64,000 bases of DNA from Desulfovibrio sp. JC010 (GTDB lineage Bacteria; Desulfobacterota; Desulfovibrionia; Desulfovibrionales; Desulfovibrionaceae), in assembly GCF_010470675.1 (NCBI RefSeq), contig NZ_VOIQ01000007.1, positions 117,188 through 181,187 on the forward strand, in the 5' to 3' direction. Of the stretch, positions 31,520 to 34,232 are shown in pieces. Numbering within the stretch: position 1 is the stretch's first letter; every line of letters begins with the position of its first letter. The notes under the pieces are model-generated. The model was not told where the DNA came from. It worked only from the letters and a program-made list of their open reading frames with translations, and did not search any database. Both the position numbers and the translations under genes were made by a program.

Positions 31520-32941
31520 ATGAAGCGCAATATTTCGTTTTTAGTTGTATTACTTTTCTTGTTGTCAATGGCGTCTTTTGCCTCAGCGCAGCAGGCGGAA
31601 AAAAAGCTTGGTGAAGCCAAGGCCCCGGTTTCCATGGAAGAGGCCAATACTCAGGTGCCTCAGGCGGAAACTCAGGAAGAAAAAGAAGCCGACATGACCC
31701 TCACCCTTGAGGAGTGTGTTGATCTCGGCCTGAAACAGAACCCGACCATCATCGCCGCCCGTAAAGATCTGCTGGCAGCGGATAGTGATGTGAAAAGACA
31801 GCGCGGTGCATTCGGTGCTCCGGTGACTACCACTTACGGCTATACCCACTACGGTGACCAGCCTCGTTCAGGCGGTGCCAATGCGGATTATCAGGACAAG
31901 TGGGCATTTACCGTAAATGTCAGCCAGCCTGTATTCAGGGGCTTTGAGCTGCTCTCCAAATACCAGAAAACAAAACTTCAGCGGGAATCCACTGAGGCCA
32001 GCCTCTACAATGCGGAACTCAGCCTGATCAGCAATATTCAGACTTCTTTCCTGACTCTGTTGCAGGGTCGTATGGACGTTAAGAGCAAGCAGGATTCTGT
32101 TGCCCGTCTGCAATCCCAGCTTGATGTTATTCAGGCTTTTTATCAGGTCGGCCTCAGGCCCCGTGTTGATGTGCTGCAGGCGGAAGTTGAGCTTGCCAAC
32201 GCAGAGCAGAATCTGCTCATTGCCAAGAACACCGTTGACTCAAGGGTTGCGAGGCTGAATACTCTGCTTAACCTGCCCATTGAAAAGAAAGTCAACTATT
32301 CCGGAGAGCTTACCTATCTTCCTTTTTCCATGACTCTTGATCAGTGCTTCGCCAAGGCGATCAAGGCCCGTCCGGACCTGAAGATTGCGCGCAAGTCCGT
32401 TGCCATCGCGGAAGAAGACGTAACCATCGCTGAAAGCGGTTTTTACCCGGATGTTTCTGCTGATTTCAATTACAGCAGCGAAGGCGGTGATCCTTCGGTC
32501 AGCACTAACAAATATAATTACGACAACCGTCCTGATGCATGGAATGTTGGCGCAAGTCTGAACTGGGAAGTCTTCAGCTGGGGCCAGACCTACTACGATT
32601 CCAAGCGTGCGGAAGATAACGTTGAGAAGATCAAGGCCGAGTACGACAATACCAAGCTCGAAGCCGAATACGAGATCAAAGACCAGATGCTCAGCCTCAA
32701 GGCTGCTGCGGACCGTATCGGCGTAGGCCGCAAGTCTGTTGAAGCTGGTCGTGAAGGTTACCGTATGGCTATGGCCCGTTATCAGGCTCAGGTCAGCACC
32801 AACAACGAAGTTCTTGATGCCCAGTCCCGTTTGAGTGACAGTGAAGCCCAGCTTATTCAGGCCCTGTCCGACTATCAGGTGGCACTGGCCAAGCTTTATG
32901 TTGCCATGGGTGACATGAACCCCTCTCTTAAGACTAACTAG
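31520..32941 (+). CDS. TolC-family outer-membrane channel protein
   Basis: 473 residues from the ATG at 31520 (signal peptide MKRNISFLVVLLFLLSMASF, cleavage near FASA-QQ). Two tandem OEP repeats follow: TLEECVDLGLKQNPTIIAA near 70 and TLDQCFAKAIKARPDLKIA near 270. Strands are separated by long periplasmic helices. It forms a trimeric export duct for efflux or type I secretion. No membrane-fusion or inner-membrane pump gene is adjacent, so its partner is elsewhere. Confidence 0.93.
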   Translation: MKRNISFLVVLLFLLSMASFASAQQAEKKLGEAKAPVSMEEANTQVPQAETQEEKEADMTLTLEECVDLGLKQNPTIIAARKDLLAADSDVKRQRGAFGAPVTTTYGYTHYGDQPRSGGANADYQDKWAFTVNVSQPVFRGFELLSKYQKTKLQRESTEASLYNAELSLISNIQTSFLTLLQGRMDVKSKQDSVARLQSQLDVIQAFYQVGLRPRVDVLQAEVELANAEQNLLIAKNTVDSRVARLNTLLNLPIEKKVNYSGELTYLPFSMTLDQCFAKAIKARPDLKIARKSVAIAEEDVTIAESGFYPDVSADFNYSSEGGDPSVSTNKYNYDNRPDAWNVGASLNWEVFSWGQTYYDSKRAEDNVEKIKAEYDNTKLEAEYEIKDQMLSLKAAADRIGVGRKSVEAGREGYRMAMARYQAQVSTNNEVLDAQSRLSDSEAQLIQALSDYQVALAKLYVAMGDMNPSLKTN

Positions 32942-32982
32942 AAAGGGATCAGATCTTAGTCTGATGTGATTTACAAATATTT

Positions 32983-33022
32983 ATCCGGCAGATTGCTTAC
33001 AGGCGGTCTGCCGGATTTTTAT
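32983..33022 (+). terminator. Terminator of tolC-family gene
   Basis: ATCCGGCAGA pairs with TCTGCCGGAT across a 14-nt loop, followed by TTTTATT. Confidence 0.85.
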
Positions 33023-33074
33023 TGTGGACATCAAGTTGTGATCAATTTTATATTGCCGGAGATTGGAGGGAAAA

Positions 33075-33302
33075 ATGTTCACGGGGCGGAAGTTTTTTAA
33101 TAAACCCGTACAGGGTTCGGAGCACGATGACGACGGACGCTGCCGTTCATGCGGCGGTGACCTGTATACCCATCGTCAATGACGCGGCGTGTTTTTGCGC
33201 TGCGGGTCCTGCGGTAAGAAATTTAACGTTGCTGATTATTCTGAATACATAGACGACGATTTTGAAGATGAAATGGCTAATGTGCCCATGAACAGGCTTT
33301 AA
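33075..33302 (+). CDS. Dual-CXXC small protein with in-frame UGA, probable selenoprotein
   Basis: A 75-codon frame is read by decoding the UGA at 33180-33182 (codon 36). A GGAGGG site lies 5 bp before the ATG. Before the UGA: MFTGRKFFNKPVQGSEHDDD then CRSCGG; after it: CGSCGKKFNVADYSEYIDDD and an acidic tail to TAA at 33300. Both halves are in the same frame and look coding, the two CXXC pairs forming one zinc ribbon. A hairpin with an exposed GUC loop follows the UGA. As I recall, small dual-CXXC proteins with Cys or Sec here occur in Desulfovibrio-type bacteria. A premature stop or sequencing error (UGG to UGA) is the alternative. Confidence 0.65.
33180..33215 (+). promoter_or_regulatory. 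UGA codon with candidate bacterial SECIS hairpin
   Basis: After the UGA (33180-33182) and 16 spacer bases, GCTGCGG (33199-33205) can pair with CTGCGGT (33209-33215), leaving GTC as apical loop; three of seven pairs are G-U. Distance from UGA to loop is 23 nt, within the range usual for bacterial SECIS elements, and the loop starts with G. The GGUC core resembles that of E. coli fdhF. The CXXC-Gly codons themselves create part of this symmetry, so it is suggestive only. Confidence 0.45.
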
Positions 33303-33320
33303 CCGGTGGATGCAATAAAA

Positions 33321-34232
33321 ATGTTCAGGAAACTGACTGTCTTCTTTTTTATTCTTTTTCTGGCAAGCGCACCTTGTGCTGTTGCTGATGATTCCCACAG
33401 CTGGGACGCTCTCAAGGACCGGCTCGTGGCCGACGGTTTCAACCGCGAGTATGTGGAGACGGTATTTTCGGCCAGTTCGCTTAAATACGATTCCGCAATG
33501 ATGGCCCGCAAGATGCGGGTGCTGCTCAAGCGCAGGTTTGAGCCGCCGGCAAAGAAAGCAGCCCGGGAAAGGAAGTATGATGAAAGATACATCGGTCCGG
33601 TTATGCTGGCCGGGGGATATTCCTATCTGCGTGAGCATTATGAATTACTTCAAAAAATAGACAAGCGTTACGGGGTTGATCCTTCCGTTTTGACCGCACT
33701 GCTGCTGGTGGAGACCAAGCTCGGTTTTACCCTCGGTGATAATCCGGCTTTTAATAATCTCGCCAACATGGCTGCCAGTTCCGATCCGCTCAAATTTTTC
33801 GATGATCTCGGTTACGAAAAGCTGGAAGAAAAAGATATGGTCTGGCTCAAGAAGCGGACCAAAAAGAAAGCCGACTGGGCTTACAAAGAACTTTCATCGC
33901 TGCTGAAATTTTCAGCAGATAATTCCATTGTGCCCACAGAGATTCCCGGTTCCCCCTACGGGGCTTTCGGTATCTGCCAGTTCATGCCCAGCACTGCCAT
34001 CCACTATGCTGTGGACGGAGACGGTGATGGACGCATCGATCTCTTTGCCCGCGAGGATGCCCTGTTCTCCATGGCCAGCTTTTTAAAGCGGCACGGCTGG
34101 AAGAATTCCCTGAGCAAGGAAAAGAAGCTTAAGGTCATCTACCGCTACAACCATTCCATGGTCTACGCCCGGACCATCTACGAAGTCTCCCGCCAGCTGG
34201 AAAAAATCCGGTCTACTTTCGGACCGGATTAA
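33321..34232 (+). CDS. Lytic murein transglycosylase, MltB family
   Basis: 303 residues from the ATG at 33321, preferred over the GTG at 33306 because GGTGGA lies at proper distance. Signal peptide ends PCAVA-DDS. Catalytic Glu is in LLLVETKLGF (about 131). GAFGICQFMPSTAIHYAVDGDGDG and the C-terminal RYNHS are typical of MltB. It cleaves peptidoglycan in the periplasm with anhydro-muramyl product. It lacks a clear lipobox, so it is probably soluble. It begins 18 bp after the candidate selenoprotein gene and could share its message. Confidence 0.92.
   Translation: MFRKLTVFFFILFLASAPCAVADDSHSWDALKDRLVADGFNREYVETVFSASSLKYDSAMMARKMRVLLKRRFEPPAKKAARERKYDERYIGPVMLAGGYSYLREHYELLQKIDKRYGVDPSVLTALLLVETKLGFTLGDNPAFNNLANMAASSDPLKFFDDLGYEKLEEKDMVWLKKRTKKKADWAYKELSSLLKFSADNSIVPTEIPGSPYGAFGICQFMPSTAIHYAVDGDGDGRIDLFAREDALFSMASFLKRHGWKNSLSKEKKLKVIYRYNHSMVYARTIYEVSRQLEKIRSTFGPD

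Follow-up and report, generated by a model that had tools for sequence, protein, structure and literature searches.

The window, which is the whole 64,000-nucleotide stretch of Desulfovibrio sp. JC010 DNA that was analyzed, contains on its forward strand a reading frame (positions 33075 to 33302) made up of an ATG-initiated run of 35 codons in all, a TGA at 33180 to 33182, a further 39 codons and a TAA. When this TGA, codon 36, is read as selenocysteine (Sec), the predicted product has 75 residues and Sec is located between two CXXC pairs, the first at residues 23 to 26 (33141 to 33152) and the second at residues 43 to 46 (33201 to 33212). A GGAGG ribosome site is present a few bases 5′ of the ATG at 33075. 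This arrangement, of one ribosome site and one frame running across a UGA that lies between two CXXC pairs, was as an earlier note on this DNA had described it. The flanking genes encode an OEP (TolC-type) protein on the 5′ side and an SLT_2 transglycosylase on the 3′ side, with the longest frame of the SLT_2 gene opening 3 bases past the TAA of the putative selenoprotein gene. A consensus scan detected a possible sigma-70-like promoter at 33025 to 33054 on the forward strand (TGGACA-18 nt-TATATT), with 10 of 12 consensus matches; the scanned region contained two such sites, one on each strand, compared with 0.8 in shuffled sequences. A terminator-like hairpin of 15 pairs was also observed at 32983 to 33016, located after the OEP gene and ahead of the selenoprotein gene, where 0.8 was expected from shuffles.

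Family assignment

With Sec scored as Cys, the product matched the NCBIfam model NF041197 (CxxC_Se_CxxC, "dual CXXC motif small (seleno)protein") at 82.2 bits, above the curated cut-off of 40 bits, and the match extended over profile positions 1 to 53 of 53, including both CXXC pairs and the intervening Sec or Cys position. The score with Trp in place of Sec was 73.3 bits, which is still above the cut-off. NF041197 is given as hypothetical protein OS_HP3, with the motif RxU, by a 2026 review that cites Zhang and Gladyshev 2007 (PMC13188914), and OS_HP3 is also listed in a 2022 review (PMC9312934); the window protein has R-Q-U at this point, and no trait was found that distinguishes it from NF041197/OS_HP3. 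One OS_HP3 gene, from Desulfosarcina widdelii, was reportedly missed by the deep-Sep program (PMC12013277). The closest named match in a scan of genome contigs was from Desulfovibrio sp. UBA2564 (L037), with 72% identity. The earlier note had presented the gene as hidden. Plain ORF calling does miss it, but the NCBIfam model is curated and the family has already been published.

Distribution of Sec and Cys at codon 36

All 17 of the genus genomes that were searched, the window's own included, carried the gene above the NF041197 cut-off. At the codon 36 column, 14 of these genomes had TGA, three had Cys and nothing else was observed, while the frame stayed conserved beyond this codon in every genome, in keeping with the earlier view that both sides of the UGA look coding and lead to a proper TAA. 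The column was also invariant, with Sec written as Cys, in an alignment of 35 members from which two loci of the set first tried (L087 and L100) had been omitted. Alignment of a Sec-coding TGA with Cys in homologues is a pattern by which bacterial selenoproteins are recognized, and it was present here within a single genus.

Two other readings of the codon were considered against these data. Translation table 11 treats TGA as a stop, in which case the 35 codons before it and the sequence after it would be remnants of a decayed gene or two frames with no relation to each other; retention of the frame across this codon in 17 of 17 genomes, whether the codon was TGA or Cys, and the high conservation of the downstream part make a real stop highly improbable. 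A TGA translated as an ordinary amino acid such as Trp, or one that results from a sequencing error for TGG, would be compatible with the above-cut-off score of the Trp version, but the Sec version scores higher and TGA recurs in other genomes; its presence in 14 of 17 genomes of the genus argues indirectly against an error for TGG. Furthermore, inspection of the homologues for Trp or Arg, as proposed in the earlier note, detected neither at this column in the 17 genus genomes or the 35 aligned members. We consider a Trp reading or a TGG error to have very little chance of being correct.

Matches to NF041197 were detected in 218 of 247 genomes of the order, 212 of them above the cut-off. The best match per genome contained one internal TGA in 85 cases and no internal stop in 133, a split for which the exact position of the TGA was checked in those loci that were read. 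Of 148 genomes drawn from the phylum, 40 had a match, and 29 of these were above the cut-off. Searching with a pattern that allowed Cys or TGA anywhere between the CXXC pairs, with no fixed position, resulted in 77 loci, for two of which (L096 and L097) the first assignment was wrong; 41 had TGA and 36 had Cys, all at the same column.

The OEP gene upstream and the SLT_2 gene downstream were found on the same strand in 17 of 17 genus genomes. These shared neighbors, combined with the occurrence of Sec or Cys at one codon, indicate that the Sec and Cys forms interchange at one chromosomal place. Among 20 loci from several genera (two of them shortened by a contig end), a TolC-type gene and an SLT_2 gene were each detected at four, and there was no constant gene partner. 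Among 77 loci with flanks of up to 1.5 kb, the 60 from outside the genus included 15 that were followed by an SLT_2 gene on the same strand, one that was followed by it on the opposite strand and 10 with a TolC-type gene upstream. As the neighbors outside the genus are inconstant, no partner is named by them. A ferritin-like gene, recognized by looking at the sequence, was observed just upstream and in the opposite direction at three of the 20 loci (L104, L108 and L113); no such gene was found at the 77 loci with flanks of up to 1.5 kb, an unbalanced sample of the best-scoring loci.

Second copies with a TGA were observed in some genomes of the order (L157 to L160). They resemble the window protein in having Sec between two CXXC pairs but differ in having G-R-U, another C-terminal tail and lower NF041197 scores, with the three of the four that were tested scoring 43.8, 40.8 and 31.9 bits relative to the cut-off of 40. 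Judged by their motif, these copies are possibly hypothetical protein DW, which is reported in the deep-Sep paper (PMC12013277) and, in the 2026 review, is filed under NF041197 with the motif GxU (PMC13188914). The genome containing the window had no second copy at E values of up to 0.001.

Selenocysteine machinery

The genome was searched for the four genes required for Sec synthesis and insertion, whose absence would have spoken against the earlier note. Matches above the respective cut-offs were obtained for all four, namely, selA (612 bits), selB (392.2 bits), selD (332.3 bits) and the tRNA-Sec gene, selC (82.5 bits), and ARAGORN also detected a tRNA-Sec with the anticodon tca. The selD match (L069, C6:28687-29610, minus strand) was observed to have an in-frame TGA of its own, and hence SelD of this genome is probably itself a selenoprotein.

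Within the order, tRNA-Sec was detected in 221 of 247 genomes at E values of up to 1e-11. For the remaining 26 genomes (20 listed and six deduced from their absence among the matches listed), nine carried the family; seven of these genes were without a TGA and two had one. The two TGA genes were in G082 and G095, assemblies that are 82% and 77% complete, respectively, and the missing tRNA-Sec may be an assembly gap.

A candidate SECIS hairpin in the second CXXC pair

Sec insertion in bacteria involves SelB, which, on a SECIS hairpin, delivers Sec-tRNA to the UGA. The SECIS of Escherichia coli fdhF is a hairpin located 3′ of the UGA that has a short apical loop with G-U and a bulged U. Folding of the window gene produced a hairpin of seven pairs at 33199 to 33215 on the forward strand, overlapping the second CXXC pair, with the apical loop GUC at 33206 to 33208. 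The spacing from UGA to loop was 23 nt, so that both the loop and the distance were as previously noted. Set against this description of the fdhF element, the hairpin of the window gene is similar in lying 3′ of the UGA and in having a short loop with G-U but dissimilar in that its stem is made from the codons of the CXXC motif. A scan of positions 32900 to 33500 against Rfam gave no match at E values of up to 1, although Rfam may or may not model an element of this type.

Taken alone, the hairpin of the window gene was unusual relative to shuffled sequences only to a moderate degree (z = −1.77, with 10 of 200 shuffles folding equally well), which is a point in favor of the TGA being a real stop. 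Furthermore, the 48-nt fold of this gene (L024) favored another hairpin closer to the UGA, at 33183 to 33204. Support for a SECIS is, therefore, derived from a comparative test rather than from the fold of the window gene alone.

In this test, the stability of the RNA following the UGA was compared with synonymous-codon reshuffles in 39 Sec genes and in 38 genes assigned to the Cys group, two of which (L096 and L097) were Sec genes. For the 42 nt from the UGA, the mean z was −1.22 in the Sec genes and −0.28 in the Cys group (p = 1.6e-5), while for 51 nt, the values were −1.07 and −0.28 (p = 0.0017). The Cys genes were slightly more stable than their own reshuffles (mean z of −0.28; p = 0.06 for 42 nt and 0.02 for 51 nt).

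The hairpin pairs were then counted, with L096 and L097 left out of the Cys groups and absent also from the Sec groups. All seven pairs were formed in 33 of 39 Sec genes of a first set and 17 of 28 of a second set, compared with 2 of 36 Cys genes. The second sample consisted of 40 regions, 28 of which fitted the pattern (four of these being the second copies L157 to L160) and 12 of which did not because the first CXXC was altered. When distinct genes were considered, the 74 Sec genes of the main family, which include the 12 altered-CXXC members and exclude the four second copies, had all seven pairs in 50 cases and at least six in 67, while the corresponding numbers for the 34 distinct Cys genes were 2 and 5. 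Pairs were formed in 94% of cells for these 74 Sec genes and in 56% for the 34 Cys genes. Among the altered-CXXC members, pair 24-30 was absent in 6 of 12 and pair 25-29 in 7 of 12. When the 3′ side was moved 1 to 3 bases out of register, pairing in the Sec genes fell to 30 to 60%.

Several of the lower pairs are accounted for by the CXXC motif itself, as the Cys genes form those pairs too. The informative pair is the top pair, which joins 33205 to 33209 in the window gene and involves the two residues (X1 and X2) between the cysteines of the second CXXC, since the wobble base of X2 can vary without an amino acid change in the 67 of 74 Sec genes in which X2 is fourfold degenerate. In 43 of these 67 genes, the wobble base was able to form a Watson-Crick pair with the second base of X1. 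The expected number was 26.0, and 0 of 10,000 shuffles, which ignore shared descent, reached as high a value. Within the genus, the three genes with Cys kept seven (L021), six (L022) and five (L020) of the seven pairs, indicating that loss of the hairpin there is partial. A hairpin downstream of the TGA that is conserved and covarying in Sec genes and mostly incomplete in Cys genes supports the presence of a SECIS signal within the second CXXC. Its conservation and covariation are difficult to reconcile with a real stop, and the fact that the full hairpin is mostly limited to TGA genes is a further argument against Trp or a TGG error at codon 36.

The identity of X1 also differed between the two groups. 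In the 74 distinct Sec genes, this residue was Arg in 40, Gly in 13, Lys in 11, Thr in 8 and Met in 2 and was never Pro, while Pro was present in 28 of the 34 distinct Cys genes. A tentative explanation, which we regard as doubtful, is that a SECIS within the second CXXC restricts the residues allowed between the cysteines, that a change from Sec to Cys lifts this RNA constraint and that Pro is a later scar. The contrast is confounded by lineage, since other genera supply most of the Cys genes, and the retention of Gly at X1 in all three Cys genes of this genus is evidence against this explanation.

Protein motifs and predicted fold

Five Cys/Sec positions, consisting of the four CXXC cysteines and codon 36, were invariant in the 35 aligned members, as was the penultimate Arg of an acidic C-terminal tail. 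In 12 further members from the order, the first CXXC was replaced by C-x-H in 11 and by C-x-C in one, and Sec and the second CXXC were kept. The C-x-H loci (L121, L127, L129, L132, L133, L136, L137, L141, L143, L144 and L145) all belonged to a single family within the order (f2). As Sec and the second CXXC are retained in this family, the replacement suggests that the first CXXC pair is less essential than the second.

No Pfam family matched the product above its cut-off, with the best score being 20.7 bits relative to a cut-off of 27 and Zn_ribbon_8 scoring 16.6 relative to 34.4. A profile search of the PDB similarly detected no convincing relative. The lowest E value in that search, 0.0015, was for 2i13_A (Aart), which was rejected as no single stretch passed alone; HypA was next, with an E value of 0.0021. 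An AlphaFold model built from a two-sequence alignment had a low mean pLDDT of 57.2 and contained strands at residues 29 to 35, 38 to 43 and 49 to 51 and a helix at residues 61 to 67. In this low-confidence model, a beta hairpin in the style of a zinc ribbon is located between the CXXC pairs and residue 36 is at its turn. From its motifs and this model, the product may be a small zinc-ribbon-like protein in which the CXXC pairs flank a beta hairpin whose tip carries Sec or Cys.

In selenoproteins, a fixed position at which Sec and Cys replace each other usually marks a redox residue, and a thiol/selenol redox role for the product appears reasonably likely on this basis. Alternatively, the selenoprotein could have a structural, binding or sensing role, acting as a zinc-ribbon module that binds nucleic acid or protein or as a sensor of selenium or a metal. 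The weak profile matches to HypA, the RNA polymerase subunits RPA12 and RPC10 and the carrier LysW (E values of 0.0021 to 0.29) and the acidic tail with its invariant Arg are consistent with such a role. As the Sec/Cys exchange points instead to redox chemistry and the inconstant neighbors outside the genus name no partner, we regard a binding or sensing role as unlikely, though deserving of some weight.

Discussion

The best account of these data is that the window contains a gene of family NF041197 in which the organism's own SelA, SelB, SelD and tRNA-Sec decode the UGA at codon 36 as Sec, directed by a SECIS that lies within the codons for the second CXXC. We would place the probability of this account at about 95%. 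The family score, the Sec or Cys residues of the homologues and the presence of the Sec machinery all agree with the selenoprotein reading of the earlier note. SelB would bind the hairpin at 33199 to 33215 and carry Sec-tRNA to the UGA, a step that we infer from the parts present; insertion of Sec at codon 36 would then give the full 75-residue product, which may perform thiol/selenol redox chemistry through residue 36.

Judged from sequence, this is a genuine selenoprotein gene of a catalogued family. Because the family is known and was already curated as a (seleno)protein, the find is sound but ordinary and is not new. It does indicate that a true selenoprotein that is dropped by plain ORF calling can be recognized from raw sequence. 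What may be of lasting value is the SECIS that covaries within the second CXXC, together with the contrast to the Cys genes; relative to the accounts of NF041197 in the published portions available to us, in which they were not encountered, the covariation and this contrast were worked out here. If the proposed restriction on X1 is true, changes from Sec to Cys would release the protein from an RNA constraint.

NF041197 is common in the order, yet no function is assigned to it in the portions of the literature surveyed, and this is a gap that a knock-out would help to fill. Within the genus, the occurrence of Sec and Cys forms at one chromosomal site offers a natural comparison of both.
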